From: Gammaproteobacteria bacterium
GTDB taxonomy: Bacteria; Pseudomonadota; Gammaproteobacteria; Ga0077536
Assembly (NCBI GenBank): GCA_019747795.1
Contig: JAIEQK010000078.1
Location: 1 to 40,437 of the forward strand
Reading direction: 5' to 3'
Length of the DNA: 40,437 bases
Part shown: piece by piece, positions 10,652 through 16,571 of the stretch
Position numbering within the stretch: the stretch's first letter is position 1
Layout of the letters: each line of letters starts with the position of its first letter
Translations under genes and position numbers: made by a program
Notes under the pieces: model-generated
Told to the model about the DNA's origin: nothing
The model's input: only the letters and a program-made list of their open reading frames with translations
The model's database searches: none

Positions 10652-11245
10652 TTATGACTCCTGGCCGAGGAGGTGGCCGTCCACCAGATCGCACAGACAA
10701 TGGATGAAGGCGATGTGCGATTCCTGGATGCGCGCGGTCGATTGGCTCGGCACGCGCAGTTCGATGTCACCCTCGCGTAAAGTGGGACTGGCCTGACCGC
10801 CATCCCGCCCGGTGCAGAGGATGATGCGCATGTCACGGTCGTGAGCCGCGTCCAGCGCGTTCAGTATGTTGTGCGAGTTGCCGCTGGTCGAGAACGCGAG
10901 CAGCACGTCGCCGGGATTGCCGAGGGCGCGGATCTGGCGCGCGAAGATGTCCGCGAACTGGTAGTCGTTGGCGATCGAGGTGACGGTCGATGCGTCGGTG
11001 GTGAGCGCGATCGCGGGCAGGCCCGGGCGCTCGCGTTCGAAACGATTCAGCATCTCGGAGGAGAAGTGCTGGGCGTCGGCGGCCGAGCCGCCGTTGCCGC
11101 AGGCCAGCACCTTGCCGCTGTTCAAGAGCGAGCCCGCGATGCAGTCCGCCGCGTCGGCCAGCTGGCGCGGCAGCTCGTCGCGGCAGCGACGCTTGACCGC
11201 GATGCTCTCGTCGAAGATGGCCTGGATGCGTTCGATGGGGTCCAC
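10652..11245 (-). CDS. diaA: SIS-domain protein, DiaA/GmhA family
   Basis: This 197-residue SIS-domain protein occupies the diaA position between yraN and dolP and carries DiaA-like stretches (NRFERERPGLPAIAL, ARIQESHIAFIHCLCDLVD). DiaA binds DnaA and promotes orderly initiation in E. coli. Unlike E. coli DiaA, this protein keeps residues used by phosphoheptose isomerase GmhA: His60 and Glu64 (AQHFSSEML), Gln174 and His182, with the same eight-residue spacing as GmhA Gln172/His180. It may therefore be an active sedoheptulose-7-phosphate isomerase or do both jobs. The start is GTG (11245-11243). Confidence 0.85.
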   Translation of the reverse strand: MDPIERIQAIFDESIAVKRRCRDELPRQLADAADCIAGSLLNSGKVLACGNGGSAADAQHFSSEMLNRFERERPGLPAIALTTDASTVTSIANDYQFADIFARQIRALGNPGDVLLAFSTSGNSHNILNALDAAHDRDMRIILCTGRDGGQASPTLREGDIELRVPSQSTARIQESHIAFIHCLCDLVDGHLLGQES

Positions 11246-11299
11246 GGCGCTGGTTCCGATGAAGACACTGATGACCGGCGTTCTCGGGCCGCGGCCGCA

Positions 11300-11692
11300 T
11301 TATGCCGAAAACGCCCCGGCAATCCACTCGCAGCGCGGCGTGTTCGCCGGACCGTGCACGGCGATCACGTCGAAGCGACACGGGCTGTCGGCGAAGCGCG
11401 CGTGACGCGCCAGGAAGTCTTGCGCGGCGAGCACGATGCGTCCCTGCTTGCGCGGGTCGATGGACTCGGCCGCGCCGCCGTGGCGCGCACTCGCCCGGTA
11501 GCGTACCTCGACGAACACCAGGGTTTCGTCAGACTGCATGACGAGATCGATCTCGCCGCCGCGGCAGCGATGATTGCGCGCCACGCAGCGCAGGCCGTGG
11601 GCCTCGAGATAACGCTCGGCGCGCGCCTCCCATGGATCGCGCGGGCGAGCGCGCGCGACCCGTCGTCCGGGTTCAGCGCGTGCCGAGCCCAT
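11300..11692 (-). CDS. yraN: YraN family (UPF0102) putative endonuclease
   Basis: The 130-residue protein has the UPF0102 nuclease-like core: [21 protein letters not shown] carries the acidic and basic residues of a PD-(D/E)xK fold, preceded by [22 protein letters not shown]. The family's cellular role is not settled. The ATG at 11692 lies inside the end of lpoA, overlapping it by 20 bases. The first 20 residues are Arg/Ala-rich and not conserved, so a later start cannot be excluded. It belongs to the lpoA-yraN-diaA-dolP transcript. Confidence 0.85.
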
Positions 11693-13571
11693 CGGCTTCG
11701 CCGATCACGGTCGGTACGCCGTCGTCGAAGCGCAGCCAGGACATGTTGCGATGGAGCACGCCGTCGGTGTCCATCCACAGGTCACCGGTCACGCCCGGCA
11801 CGCGCATGCTGGCGCGCGCCCGCATGCGCGACAGGAACGGCAGCACGCGGTAGGCATCGATGCCGAAGGCGTAGAGGCGCGCGTAGCTGGCGGCCGGGCC
11901 CGGCCAGCTGCGTCGCACCAGGTCGTAGGACTCGCGATCGACCTGGCCGAACAGCCAGGGCATGTCGCCGAACACCAGCCCGTTCAGATCGACGTCGCGT
12001 TCCGCGCTCGAGGCGCCGGCATAGACGTTGGAGGTGGCGAACACCGGGATGCTGTCGGCGCCGAAATAGCGCAGCTGCGGCAGCAGCTGGCGCGCGTTGT
12101 TGGGCAGCGCCGCGAGCAGGATCACGTCGATGTCCGCGCGGTGCCGCACCTCGGCATGCAGTGGAATCCCGAGCCGGCGACGCAGGGCCGCGGCGCGCGC
12201 TTCGCTGACATCGATGTTGAGCGCGCGGCGGATGGCCGCGACGTAGGCGTCGGCGGCGTCCGAGTAGACCACCTGCCCCAGCACCGTGCCGCCGAGGCTC
12301 TGCCAGGCGCGACCGTAGGCGGCGCCGAGCCGCGTTCCCCAGGGCGAACTCGGCGCGATGATCAGCGCGCGTGTGCCGACGCCGTAGGCGCGCCGCGCGA
12401 CCTGCGCGGCCTCGTCCTCCGGCGTCAGCCCGAACTGGTAGAAACCTGGGCGCGCGGCCGGCGCGCCGGGGCGGGCATCGACTACGTTCAGCGCGAGCAC
12501 CGGCACCGGCAGATCGGGACTCGCCGCCAGGCGCTCCACCAGGTTCTTCTGCAGCGGGCCGATCACGAACTGCGCGCCGTCGGCCACCGCGCGCTGGTAG
12601 TCCTTGAGGATGTCGTCGCCGCCGTTGGGGTAGACCGTCAGCGCCGGCCGGGCCTGGCGCTGGCCGTCGCGGAACCAGGCGGTGATGAAACCATCACGCA
12701 CCGCGCGGCCGGCGGTGCCGAGGGTGGCGTCGAAGGGCAGGATGAGCGCCACCCGGGCGGGCCGTGCGCTGGCCGCGCTCGCGCGCTCGAGTATGCCCTC
12801 GATGAGAGGCGTGGCCGGGTGGCCGGGATGTCTTTGCCGCCATTCGTCCAGGCGCGGCGCCACCGCGGTCGGGTCAAGGTTCGCCTGCTGGGCAAGCGCG
12901 GCAAGCGAGTACCAGCCGTGGGCGGCCGGGTCGGCGGCGCTGGCGGCAATGCGCTGGCCGAGTTCGGCGGCGCCGAGGCCGGTCAGGCTGCCGAGCGCCG
13001 CCTCGCCCATGATCGTCTGTTCGGTCACTGGGTGGGGCAGGGCGAAGGCCTCGATCCAGGCCGGCCCCGCCACGGGGAAATTGCGCAGGCCGGTGGCCGC
13101 CGCCGCGATCACCCGCGCGCGGACGCCGCGAGCATAGGGGGCGAGCGTGGTCGGCTCGATTGCCTGGGCATGGGCGAGCGCTGTTTCGGCCTGCCCCGCG
13201 CGCAGTTCGGCACGCGCGCCGGCCAGCGCCAGCAGGGGATTGCTGGCCGCCGCGGGACCCTGCGCCGCCAGCAGCTGCGCCGCGCGCGGCAGATCGCCCG
13301 CTTCCTGCCACGCGAGCGCGGCCAGGCCCAAGGCGCGCGCCGACTGTTCGGGCGGGGCGTCGGCCGGCAGGGCCTGGTAAGCGGCGGCGGCCTGGGCATA
13401 CTGCCCCTGCGCGAGCAGCCGGTCGGCGCTCGCCAGCGGGTCGGGCGGCGGCGTCGGCGCGCTTTCCTCGACATTGCCAGGCGCGGTGCAAGCGCCTGTA
13501 ATGAGCGCGGCCACCAACACCGATGCCAAGTACAGGAGACGCCAAGAGAAAATGGGCGCGGAGCGGATCAC
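11673..13571 (-). CDS. lpoA: Outer-membrane lipoprotein activator of PBP1A, LpoA
   Basis: LpoA spans the periplasm from the outer membrane and activates the bifunctional murein synthase PBP1A. A GTG at 13571-13569 gives 632 residues beginning with a short basic n-region ([10 protein letters not shown]), a hydrophobic core and the lipobox ITGAC with Cys28. A TPR-rich N-terminal half (about 35-290) is followed by a periplasmic-binding-like half starting [10 protein letters not shown]. An ATG at 13703 would hide the signal peptide and lie well inside rsmI. The predicted promoter starts transcription at about the GTG itself, so the mRNA may be leaderless. Confidence 0.88.
13474..13502 (+). promoter_or_regulatory. 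Promoter for rsmI
   Basis: TTGCCA (13474-13479), 17 bases, then TGTAAT (13497-13502): five of six consensus bases in each hexamer. Transcription would start near 13509. The promoter lies inside the signal-peptide codons of lpoA on the other strand. Confidence 0.6.
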
Positions 13572-14469
13572 CGAGGCAGTATCTTTGCCGCCCGTGGAGG
13601 TGTCAATCGAACGGCCGGCGCTGTACGTGGTGGCGACGCCGATTGGCAACCTCGGCGATTTCGCGCCGCGCGCCGCGGCGGTGCTGGCGGCGGTCGACGT
13701 CATCTACTGCGAAGACACCCGGCACAGCCGCCGGTTGCTCGACCACTTCAACATCCGTACCCCGGTGGCGGCGCTGCACGCGCACAACGAGGGCGACGTG
13801 AGCGAGCGCCTGCTCACCCGCCTGGCCGCGGCCGGCCAGGCTTGTGCGCTGATTTCCGATGCCGGCACGCCGCTGATCTCCGACCCCGGCTTCCCCCTGG
13901 TGCGCGCCGCGCGCACGGCCGGTATGCCGGTCTACGGTCTGCCCGGTCCCTGCGCGCTGGTTGCCGCACTCAGCGTCTCGGGGCTGCCCACCGCGCGTTT
14001 CGTCTTCGAGGGTTTTCTGCCCGCCCAGGCCGGGGCACGGGCGAGCCGCCTGGCGGCGCTCGCGGGCGACAGCCGCACACTGGTGTTCTACGAAGCCCCT
14101 CACCGCCTGGCGGCAAGCCTGGAGGCGATGGGCGAGGCTTTTGGCGGCGACCGGCCGGCAGTCCTGGCGCGCGAACTGACCAAGCGCTTCGAAACGGTCT
14201 ACGCCGGCACCCTGGCTGAACTCGCCGCACGGGTCGCGAGCGATCCCAACGCGGCCCGGGGTGAGTGCGTACTCATGCTGGCAGGGGCGCCGGAAACGGC
14301 GCAGGCCGACGATACCGAACTCGCCAGGCTGCTGACCTTGACGCTCGCGGAGACCGACAGGCGCACCGCGGTGCGCATCGTCGCCGCACTCTCGGGGCGG
14401 CCGCGCAACCAGGTCTACCAGGCTTCATTGCGGCTCGGCGGCCAGGATGTCGAGGTCGACGCTGATTGA
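13552..14469 (+). CDS. rsmI: 16S rRNA (cytidine-1402-2'-O)-methyltransferase
   Basis: RsmI methylates the ribose of C1402 in the decoding centre of 16S rRNA, using SAM. From the ATG at 13552 the protein has 305 residues; the conserved region starts at LYVVATPIGNLGDFAPRA and includes VIYCEDTRHS, ISDAGTPLISDPG and GLPGPCALVAAL. AGGAGA (13534-13539) lies 12 bases upstream, slightly far; TTG 13585 or GTG 13594 are later options that would still keep the domain. The gene is divergent from lpoA and their 5' ends overlap. rnpB follows 31 bases after the stop. Confidence 0.93.
   Translation: MGAERITEAVSLPPVEVSIERPALYVVATPIGNLGDFAPRAAAVLAAVDVIYCEDTRHSRRLLDHFNIRTPVAALHAHNEGDVSERLLTRLAAAGQACALISDAGTPLISDPGFPLVRAARTAGMPVYGLPGPCALVAALSVSGLPTARFVFEGFLPAQAGARASRLAALAGDSRTLVFYEAPHRLAASLEAMGEAFGGDRPAVLARELTKRFETVYAGTLAELAARVASDPNAARGECVLMLAGAPETAQADDTELARLLTLTLAETDRRTAVRIVAALSGRPRNQVYQASLRLGGQDVEVDAD
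13578..13606 (-). promoter_or_regulatory. Promoter for lpoA-yraN-diaA-dolP
   Basis: On the minus strand, TTGACA (13606-13601), a 17-base spacer and GATACT (13583-13578) form a consensus-like sigma-70 promoter. The start point is expected near 13571, where the GTG start of lpoA lies. It sits within the first codons of rsmI on the plus strand. Confidence 0.65.
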
Positions 14470-14494
14470 ATTCGCGGCGTGGAAGGCCGACACT
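14466..14494 (+). promoter_or_regulatory. Probable rnpB promoter
   Basis: TTGAAT (14466-14471), a 17-base spacer and GACACT (14489-14494) would start transcription at about 14501, where the P1 helix of the RNase P RNA begins. The -10 is weak, with three of six bases matching. The -35 overlaps the rsmI stop codon. Spacing and position are the main support. Confidence 0.45.
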
Positions 14495-14500
14495 CCTGCC

Positions 14501-14895
14501 CGGCAAGTCGGCCGGGTGATCGCTGTCCTTGGCGTCGGCGCAAGCCCGCGCCGGGGCAGAGGAAAGTCCGGGCTCCGCAGGACGGGATGCCAGGTAACGC
14601 CTGGGGGGCGAGAGCCCACGGAAAGTGCCACAGAAAATATACCGCCACGCGGCAACGCGGGGTAAGGGTGAAATGGTGCGGTAAGAGCGCACCGCGCCGG
14701 CCAACACCGGTGGCAGGGTAAACCCCATCCGGAGCAAGACCAAATAGGGAAACGTGCCGCGCGAGCGGTGAAGCGTGGTCCGCGCCAGTTTCCGGGTAGG
14801 TCGCTTCAGGCGCGTGGCGACGCGCGTCGCAGATGAATGATCACCGCCGTCCGCAAGGGCGGAACAGAACCCGGCTTACAGGCCGACTTGCCTCC
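14501..14895 (+). ncRNA. rnpB: RNase P RNA, bacterial type A
   Basis: This is the catalytic RNA that matures tRNA 5' ends together with the protein RnpA. The universal 5' core GAGGAAAGTCCGGGCTCC is at 14559-14576 and the matching 3' core ACAGAACCCGGCTTA at 14864-14878. The ends pair: GGCAAGTCGGCC (14502-14513) is the exact complement of GGCCGACTTGCC (14881-14892), giving a 12-bp P1 helix and placing the ends near 14501 and 14895. The length of about 395 bases suits the type. The exact 3' end and terminator are not clear. Confidence 0.95.
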
Positions 14896-15061
14896 TCTTC
14901 CCTTCGACCAGCGGGTTCTCCAGTCTGATGTATCGGATGAGCTGTCGGGCTTATCTGGATGATTTTCGTAAGCGTTTTGCTACCGCTATTCCGTCCTCTT
15001 CGGCAGTTCGACAGACCCGGCCTAAGTCACTGTTCGCAAAGCAAGAATCGCCCGGATTTTC
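14896..15061. other. Gene-free, relatively AT-rich spacer after rnpB
   Basis: I see no gene, no strong terminator hairpin and no tRNA here. Base composition drops to roughly 50% GC against nearly 70% around it. TCCTCTTC followed by TTCGAC occurs twice about 100 bases apart (near 14893 and 14990). The region separates rnpB from the dcw promoter and may hold the 3' processing signals of rnpB or an undetected small RNA. Confidence 0.4.
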
Positions 15062-15091
15062 TTGACAGTTTTTCGCCTCGATCCGTATAGT
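15062..15091 (+). promoter_or_regulatory. Main dcw-cluster promoter (Pmra)
   Basis: TTGACA (15062-15067), an 18-base spacer and TATAGT (15086-15091) form the strongest promoter in the window. Transcription should start near 15098 and leave a leader of about 108 bases before mraZ. The position corresponds to the mra promoter that drives the division and cell-wall cluster in E. coli. Confidence 0.8.
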
Positions 15092-15099
15092 GCCCGCTG

Positions 15100-15123
15100 G
15101 TGGTGAATAGTGGGGAAAAGTGG
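15100..15123 (+). promoter_or_regulatory. MraZ operator: three GTGG repeats
   Basis: GTGG occurs at 15100, 15110 and 15120, exactly ten bases apart, just downstream of the predicted start point. E. coli MraZ binds direct TGGGN repeats with the same 10-base period near its own promoter, so this is very likely the autoregulatory site. Confidence 0.75.
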
Positions 15124-15206
15124 ATCCGGCCTGACTTGCCCGCAGGGCGACGGTGGAACGTTCTCCACCCACGCAGCCCGCGCGTCACGCTCGATCCCGC
15201 ATGTGC

Positions 15207-15665
15207 ATGTTCCGCGGCCAGAGCACAATCAGTGTCGATCCCAAGGGGCGTCTGGCCGTGCCGACGCGCTTTCGGGATGCACTCGCCGCCCTCCCCAGCC
15301 AGGACCTGGTGCTGACCCTCAATCCCTGGGACCGCGCGCTGTGGGTCTACCCGGTGGCCGAATGGCAGACCATCGAGACCAAGCTCGCGGCCCTGTCCGA
15401 CTTCGATCGCCAGAGTCGCCGCACCAAGCAGATCATGCGCGGCTACGCGGCGGACTGCAGCTGCGACGGCCAGGGCCGCGTGCTGCTGCCGGCGGAGCTG
15501 CGCGAGATAGCCGGGATCACCAAGCAGGTCACGGTGCTTGGCCAGGGCAACAAGATCGAGATCTGGGACCAGGCCACCTGGCAGTCCGAGCGCGAACAGT
15601 GGCTGCGCGACGTCGCCGACGGCGTCGACACCTCGTCGGCCGCGCTGGAATCCTTGTCCCTGTGA
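15207..15665 (+). CDS. mraZ: Transcriptional regulator MraZ
   Basis: MraZ is an AbrB-like (SpoVT type) DNA-binding protein that represses its own dcw operon. Starting at the ATG at 15207 gives 152 residues beginning MFRG, as in E. coli, and of the same length; the in-frame ATG at 15201 would add two residues. The duplicated DxxxR motifs appear as DPKGR (11-15) and DGQGR (87-91), each followed by a VP/LP turn. No clear ribosome site is seen. It is first in the cluster, and its repeats lie in its own leader. Confidence 0.95.
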   Translation: MFRGQSTISVDPKGRLAVPTRFRDALAALPSQDLVLTLNPWDRALWVYPVAEWQTIETKLAALSDFDRQSRRTKQIMRGYAADCSCDGQGRVLLPAELREIAGITKQVTVLGQGNKIEIWDQATWQSEREQWLRDVADGVDTSSAALESLSL

Positions 15666-15674
15666 TCGGTCGCC

Positions 15675-16571
15675 ATGTTCGCCCACGTTCCGGTACTGCA
15701 GGATGAAGTGCTCGCGCACCTGCGCATCGCGCCCGCGGGCAGCTACGTGGATGCGACTTTCGGACGCGGCGGACACAGTCGCGCCATCCTGCGCGTGCTC
15801 GGCCCCGAAGGCCGGCTGTGCGTGTTCGACCGCGATCCCGAGGCCATCGCCTGCGCGCGGGCCCTGGCCGCGGAGGACGCGCGAGTGACGGTGATCCACG
15901 CCGCGTTTTCGCGCCTCGAAGCGGCCGGTCCCGCGCTTCGCGACGGCATCCTGTTCGATCTCGGCATCTCTTCGCCGCAGGTGGACGATGCCGCGCGCGG
16001 CTTCAGCTTTCGCGCCGACGGTCCGCTCGACATGCGCATGGACCCGACGCGCGGGCAGAGCGTCGCTGCGTGGCTCGCCGAGGCCGCCGAGAGCGACATC
16101 GCCGACGTGCTGTGGCGCTACGGCGAGGAGCGTCGCTCGCGCCTCATCGCGAAGCGCGTGGTCGAAGCGCGCCGACGCGCGCCGCTCGCCACCACCCTCG
16201 AACTCGCCCGCCTGGTGCACGGCTGCTTTCCCCACCATGGTGGCCGCATCGACAATGCCACCCGCACCTTCCAGGCGCTGCGCATCTTCATCAACGACGA
16301 ACTCGGCGAGATCGAGCGCGCGCTGGACGTCGCGCTCACGCTGCTGAAAGTCGGCGGCCGGGTGCTGGTGATCAGTTTCCATTCGCTCGAGGATCGCCTG
16401 GTCAAGCAGCGCTTTCGCGCGCTCGATGACGCGGCGCGCGCCGCGGTGAACGACACAACGCCGCGCTTTCGCCTGGTGCAGCGCAAGGCCATCCAGGCCG
16501 GCGAAGCCGAGCTCGCGGCCAATCCCCGCGCCCGCAGCGCGCGCCTGCGCGTCTTGGAACGCGCCGCGTGA
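15675..16571 (+). CDS. rsmH: 16S rRNA (cytosine-1402-N4)-methyltransferase
   Basis: RsmH (MraW) adds the N4-methyl group to C1402 of 16S rRNA, the nucleotide whose ribose RsmI methylates. The 298 residues include HVPVLQDEVL, the SAM-binding loop DATFGRGGHS, FDLGISSPQVDD, DMRMDP and the late SFHSLEDRLVK block. It starts nine bases after mraZ and overlaps ftsL (GTGA). Enzymes for both modifications of C1402 thus lie within 3 kb of each other, on either side of rnpB. Confidence 0.97.
   Translation: MFAHVPVLQDEVLAHLRIAPAGSYVDATFGRGGHSRAILRVLGPEGRLCVFDRDPEAIACARALAAEDARVTVIHAAFSRLEAAGPALRDGILFDLGISSPQVDDAARGFSFRADGPLDMRMDPTRGQSVAAWLAEAAESDIADVLWRYGEERRSRLIAKRVVEARRRAPLATTLELARLVHGCFPHHGGRIDNATRTFQALRIFINDELGEIERALDVALTLLKVGGRVLVISFHSLEDRLVKQRFRALDDAARAAVNDTTPRFRLVQRKAIQAGEAELAANPRARSARLRVLERAA

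Follow-up and report, generated by a model that had tools for sequence, protein, structure and literature searches.

The analysed window, i.e., the whole stretch of 40,437 nt taken from a gammaproteobacterial assembly of 5.94 Mb, harbours the divergent gene pair lpoA and rsmI, the start codons of which (GTG 13571 and GTG 13600) are separated by 28 nt; all coordinates given here are positions of this window (Table 1). The Pfam matches indicate that both genes were named rightly in the initial annotation, and the hexamers of the two putative promoters at this junction agree, in their letters and coordinates, exactly with those it had proposed.

Table 1. Features of the lpoA/rsmI junction (positions of the window).
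Feature	Position	Strand	Remarks
lpoA CDS	11673–13571	−	outer-membrane lipoprotein LpoA; from GTG 13571; Pfam LppC, E = 9.8e-79
rsmI CDS	13600–14469	+	Pfam TP_methylase and RsmI_C; GTG 13600 most likely start
lpoA −35 TTGACA	13601–13606	−	sequence; conserved in relatives
lpoA −10 GATACT	13578–13583	−	sequence; N17 from −35
Predicted lpoA transcription start	13571	−	7th nt after −10; coincides with the first nt of the start codon GTG
rsmI −35 TTGCCA	13474–13479	+	sequence; antisense in lpoA codons
rsmI −10 TGTAAT	13497–13502	+	antisense in lpoA lipobox codons; N17 from −35
Predicted rsmI transcription start	13509	+	7th nt after −10; inferred
Predicted doubly transcribed region	13509–13571	both	63 nt; starts placed 7 nt past each −10

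For rsmI, GTG 13600 is the most likely start as judged from the sequences, with in-frame alternatives at 13594, 13552, 13501, and 13474; an ATG, GTG, or TTG stands at the equivalent place in the representatives of 22 of the 24 families having the exact lpoA promoter described below. The start may be located at 13552 or 13501 in the window's genus, and in two genomes of another genus (G008 and G015), the sequences of which were read by eye, an in-frame TAG occurs between the equivalents of these codons and the GTG equivalent to 13600. For lpoA, GTG 13571 is the most likely start: according to the codon comparison, it is kept in six genomes, in which there is little conservation of the dozen residues that follow. 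Starts located farther downstream were rejected for the window because the candidates at 48, 57, and 60 nt would leave the signal peptide without a positive charge. In some relatives such starts are possible, with GTG at 24 nt (G008 and G015) or TTG at 42 nt (G007), and an ATG located still farther downstream is a possible start in several other families.

In loci L015 and L121 (genomes G017 and G022), the lpoA ATG and an in-frame rsmI ATG share one CATG palindrome, so that the start codons overlap head-on. In locus L008 (genome G008), GGG occupies the place equivalent to the rsmI start at 13600 and the lpoA −35 reads TTGACC, which may be real or an assembly error. At its 3′ end, rsmI is directly followed by the RNase P RNA (RF00010, 292.8 bits; 14504–14894, plus strand), which lies 5′ of mraZ. 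A promoter-like site TTGACA-N18-TATAGT occurs 5′ of mraZ (region 15062–15124, plus strand), and on its 3′ side there are three GTGG repeats spaced 10 bp apart (15100, 15110, and 15120), which we take to resemble MraZ boxes.

The lpoA promoter and the predicted leaderless transcript

The comparison covered 140 loci, which included 100 regions from the class, 38 from relatives (30 and a further 8 of 80), locus L121, and E. coli. Nine loci without the anchor motif were left out; 131 were kept, and 129 are distinct and have at least 250 nt upstream. Locus L034 is a duplicate of genome G002, being identical at the junction. RsmI was found in 349 of the 369 genomes of the class search, the 100 regions coming mostly from the top of the similarity list, and the family search comprised 36 genomes. 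In five of 32 family genomes, all belonging to one genus (L020, L024, L032, L033, and L224, i.e., G018, G012, G023, G004, and G030), no long divergent lpoA frame was seen beside rsmI.

The lpoA promoter matches the sigma70 consensus at 10 of 12 positions, as expected for a promoter of this type, and it is the only site listed at the lpoA/rsmI junction by a strict promoter scan of positions 11000–16000. The pattern TTGACA-N16-18-[GT]ATA[AC]T is found at four sites in the whole 5.94-Mb genome, the lpoA promoter included, and its reversed control at none. Among the sampled loci, the score of the junction zone exceeded that of every same-strand control located within lpoA in 87 of 125 cases for the minus strand (15.6 expected) and in 60 of 125 for the plus strand (20.8 expected); since this excess is partly due to base composition, a test with dinucleotide shuffles was added. 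For the zone of the window, the observed score was attained by none of 60 shuffles, whichever strand was considered, and at the level of at most 5% the test was passed by 58 of the 129 junctions for the minus strand and by 31 for the plus strand (6.5 expected each).

Conservation of the hexamers in relatives, the check that had been suggested together with the promoters, is widespread for the lpoA promoter: TTGACA-N16-18-GATACT occurs in 37 of the 129 distinct gammaproteobacterial junctions, representing 24 families, and this proportion is not a class-wide frequency because most class loci are top RsmI matches. Before de-duplication the exact promoter was counted in 39 of 131 loci, and 38 distinct sites are obtained if a shorter upstream region is allowed; among the latter, the spacing is 17 nt in 33, 18 nt in four, and 16 nt in one.

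When junction sites were selected only on TTGACA-N17-NANNNT, 32 of 33 had GATACT as the −10. This hexamer occurs in the zone of 40 of the 129 junctions, 37 of them having TTGACA 16–18 nt upstream; the 180 letter arrangements of GATACT, itself included, occur in the zone 1.8 times on average. TTGACA is found in the zone of 48 junctions, 11 of which have no GATACT at 16–18 nt. Apart from the hexamers and the rsmI codons, the sequences are poorly conserved; together with the varying spacing, this is more in keeping with a promoter than with a single rigid site for a protein. In the relatives' junctions, the −10 usually ends 58 nt before the rsmI TPIGN codons. Since the −35 overlaps the rsmI start codon and codon 2, it is in part constrained by the coding function of rsmI; in the window, neither of the two likely coding regions includes the −10. 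The proposal that the lpoA promoter lies inside rsmI is therefore not valid for the start at GTG 13600, which overlaps the −35, and would be valid if rsmI starts with the ATG at 13552 or 13501; given GTG 13600, the predicted lpoA transcription start falls in the rsmI 5′ leader.

The near-constant GATACT is two letters off the consensus, though it is noncoding in the window. A general preference of these genomes for GATACT was considered and was not seen in the TTGACA-N17-NATANT matches from 56 class genomes; among the matches listed, eight have GATACT, five of which are beside rsmI by coordinates.

Since GTG 13571 begins at the seventh nucleotide after the −10, the lpoA mRNA is predicted to be leaderless, the −10 being placed so that transcription would start at the start codon; no Shine–Dalgarno-like stretch was seen before this GTG. 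In the window's family, the start codon is located close behind the −10 in all 10 genomes with the lpoA promoter: GTG stands 6 nt after it in six genomes (three genera), and ATG 9 nt after it in four. Outside this family, an ATG or GTG occurs 6–8 nt after the −10 in 6 of the 27 genomes with the promoter, and the remaining 21, having no such start, presumably possess a leader. When the duplicate is removed, 16 of 37 genomes with the promoter have ATG or GTG 6–11 nt after the −10. The underlying analysis of leaders covered 40 rows (39 exact promoters and G008 with TTGACC), in which the lipobox was recognised in 38 and such a start in 17. With one duplicate included, 13 genomes fall into the bin of 6–8 nt and four into that of 9–11 nt, and each remaining 3-nt bin, as far as 44 nt, contains from zero to five.

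In the portion of the survey of 953 bacterial genomes used here (PMC3160421), a TA-like box located about 10–12 bp 5′ of the start is given as the mark of leaderless genes, which were recorded in 15 of 239 gammaproteobacterial genomes. The lpoA gene resembles these genes in having the −10 six nucleotides before the start codon and no Shine–Dalgarno-like stretch, whereas its box is GATACT accompanied by a full TTGACA −35, and its start is GTG. Leaderless GUG starts, according to the cited part of PMC9031893, are weak in E. coli and efficient in some other bacteria.

The candidate rsmI promoter within lpoA codons

The putative rsmI promoter also shows 10 of 12 matches to the sigma70 consensus, as a promoter of this type should, and none of 60 shuffles was as good. 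It is missing from the strict scan because its −10 is without the usually critical A at position 2. Transcription from this site would give the rsmI mRNA about 91 nt of leader before GTG 13600.

Here, too, the hexamers withstood the comparison with relatives, within a narrower circle: of the genomes examined, the six nearest, which represent three genera, retain TTGCCW-N17-TGTAAT, and the occurrence of the exact pair of boxes was limited to six genomes from three genera. Among the 141 degenerate lpoA columns with a common amino acid in the six genomes, the codon is identical in all six in 15. They include a single run, GCG CTC ATT ACA, which is complementary to TGTAATGAGCGC; apart from the ATT and ACA of this run, none of the 15 codons ends in A or T. 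Where lpoA overlaps the rsmI −35, the Gly codon GGC is identical in the six genomes.

In the wider family, an NRTAAT box is present at the lipobox in 19 of the 27 genomes with lpoA (the pattern itself was found in 21, two of them off position), and the peptide varies from LIT to LII, IIA, and SIM. As NRTAAT itself implies ATT, the fairer figure is the use of ATT for the first lipobox Ile that precedes an Ile, Met, or Thr, which was seen in 19 of 19 cases versus 201 of 617 Ile codons gene-wide, the relatives being non-independent. In G010, G011, G017, and G022, four members of the family which possess the lpoA promoter, no rsmI site scored above the controls. The shuffle test was passed on both strands in 16 of the 129 junctions, six of which belong to the window's family. 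The simplest reading of these sequences is that the TGTAAT stretch represents the −10 element of rsmI; it may instead be held by an RNA-level need of lpoA.

The lipobox sequence of LpoA is ALITGAC in the window (13488–13502) and ALITCAC in five relatives (L005–L009), the second cysteine of the relatives being located two residues upstream.

Overlapping 5′ ends and the orthologous pair of E. coli

The predicted start sites are 62 bp apart, and the promoters would therefore stand face to face at a short distance. The claim that two head-on promoters would give overlapping 5′ ends of about 60 bases is supported by the sequence comparison; the overlaps predicted for six genomes from the promoters only are 63, 63, 63, 57, 57, and 63 nt. 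Such an overlap is nearly forced because the start codons are only 28 nt apart. A bidirectional promoter with a shared −10 has one AT-rich element which serves both strands. This arrangement was rejected for the present junction, where two separate −10 elements occur with 75 bp between them.

We suggest, as a reading that is rather probable as a whole, that lpoA and rsmI form a compact conserved divergent pair with two sigma70-type promoters placed face to face, both being ordinary housekeeping promoters. The lpoA promoter would extend across the rsmI start codon and, in the window's family, produce a leaderless lpoA mRNA beginning with GTG. The rsmI promoter, located antisense within the lpoA codons for the signal peptide and the lipobox, would produce the rsmI mRNA with its long leader, and about the first 63 nt of the two mRNAs would be complementary. 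Each polymerase would cross the promoter of the other gene, where a waiting polymerase would be dislodged or the promoter briefly covered, both genes being modestly lowered, and RNase III would cut the paired lpoA and rsmI 5′ ends. The comparison of genomes is the basis for both promoters and for the leaderless spacing; the start sites in this organism, the cutting by RNase III, and the interference, which is expected from the 62-bp geometry, we infer.

In phage 186, the convergent promoter pR lowers pL about 6-fold, mainly by dislodging the waiting polymerase, as given in the cited part of PMC6593788; elsewhere in this paper, a promoter distance of 65 bp was chosen to keep collisions few. The lpoA and rsmI promoters are likewise face to face at a short distance, and interference by dislodging would be expected for them. 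They differ from pR and pL in that they serve two chromosomal housekeeping genes with no known regulator, the interference being a prediction. For RNase III, the passages used from PMC7154746 describe the cutting of paired transcripts genome-wide in bacteria.

The orthologous pair of E. coli, yraL/yraM (rsmI/lpoA), has 64 nt between the genes, lpoA being annotated with ATG, and its junction sequence differs from that of the window. To place the published double-stranded RNA (dsRNA) cluster S-259 on E. coli lpoA, we assumed a coordinate shift of about 1978 nt. Cluster S-259 is this very pair as listed among the 20 top-ranking coding dsRNA clusters (PMC7373196, Table 2; coordinates of U00096.2), where it is assigned to the 5′ overlap type; its dsRNA was captured by p19 in stationary phase, and it is positive also in the Lybecker and Conway data sets. 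The assumed shift fits the asd cluster of the same paper and would place the E. coli duplex in about codons 9–48 of lpoA; therefore, in E. coli as well, transcription of the rsmI strand must begin within lpoA. The promoter scores of the E. coli junction were unremarkable on either strand in the comparison with shuffles, so the support from E. coli consists of the published dsRNA only.

The RNA duplex which had been predicted for the window is thus already known at the orthologous E. coli pair, insofar as the cited part of PMC7373196 records it. The two cases share the same divergent genes, the 5′ ends of which overlap to form dsRNA, and, with the assumed shift, the location of the duplex in the first part of lpoA. 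They differ in junction sequence and promoters and in the lpoA start, which is ATG in E. coli and the predicted leaderless GTG here. A search of the open-licence literature by gene names revealed no other paper on the lpoA/rsmI promoter pair.

Alternative readings and significance

On the evidence of the compared sequences, the lpoA/rsmI arrangement is real and conserved, and it is of a kind already known. It may still be inconsequential, i.e., a by-product of packing divergent genes 28 nt apart, with interference and duplex too weak to matter; we regard this as a possibility of some weight, well short of even. The gap between GTG 13571 and GTG 13600 is too small for two promoters, so that each sits in the other gene; E. 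coli keeps the pair and forms the duplex with different junction sequences, and PMC7373196, in the part cited, refers to the view of antisense RNAs as mainly noise. However, compaction alone leaves unexplained the letter-for-letter GATACT in 24 families.

It is rather unlikely that the lpoA promoter alone is real, with TGTAAT held by the lpoA mRNA or the signal peptide and rsmI transcribed from another site. The imperfect TGTAAT, which fails the strict scan, and the four family members possessing the lpoA promoter with no such rsmI site agree with this possibility, but the −35 half of the rsmI promoter and its N17 spacing are kept too, NRTAAT persists in the family while the peptide changes, and rsmI still needs a promoter, with just lpoA upstream of it.

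The initial annotation also proposed a regulatory link between murein-synthase activation (LpoA) and rRNA modification (RsmI), which we found to be unsupported, the overlap being nearly unavoidable at 28 nt. An excludon-type switch coupling these functions is quite improbable. The head-on layout is long conserved, and 5′ overlaps of divergent mRNAs, as in lpoA/rsmI, are known for excludons (PMC7154746, in the part cited). However, excludons are described there by a long transcript silencing its neighbour, whereas the lpoA/rsmI overlap is about 60 nt and repression is hypothetical; moreover, no condition is known that switches either gene, and the open-licence literature searched by gene names contained no paper on an LpoA–RsmI regulatory link.

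A broader reading, which we consider very doubtful, is that the junction represents an old interference module balancing lpoA and rsmI. In the family it would form a feedback, in which RsmI tunes LpoA translation and rsmI transcription dampens lpoA, and the constancy of GATACT would be due to an additional protein or to the requirement of an exact promoter strength. RsmI methylates C1402, which is said in the cited part of PMC5053481 to matter for start-codon selection. The feedback was conceived because this nucleotide belongs to the ribosomal P site and the lpoA mRNA would be leaderless with GTG; the tie between C1402 methylation and this GTG is only an idea. That the hexamers are chance matches can be practically dismissed: matches at 10 of 12 positions do occur randomly and the plus-strand −10 is imperfect, but genome-wide rarity, shuffles, and conservation speak against it.

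Returning to the facing promoters of a compact divergent pair, we suggest that one of them, residing in signal-peptide codons, and the other, extending across a start codon, provide a head-on arrangement traceable over many families. The constant TTGACA-N17-GATACT raises the question of whether interference has led to selection for an exact promoter strength, and the leaderless GTG mRNA predicted for lpoA raises that of whether an envelope gene may depend on the P-site methylation.
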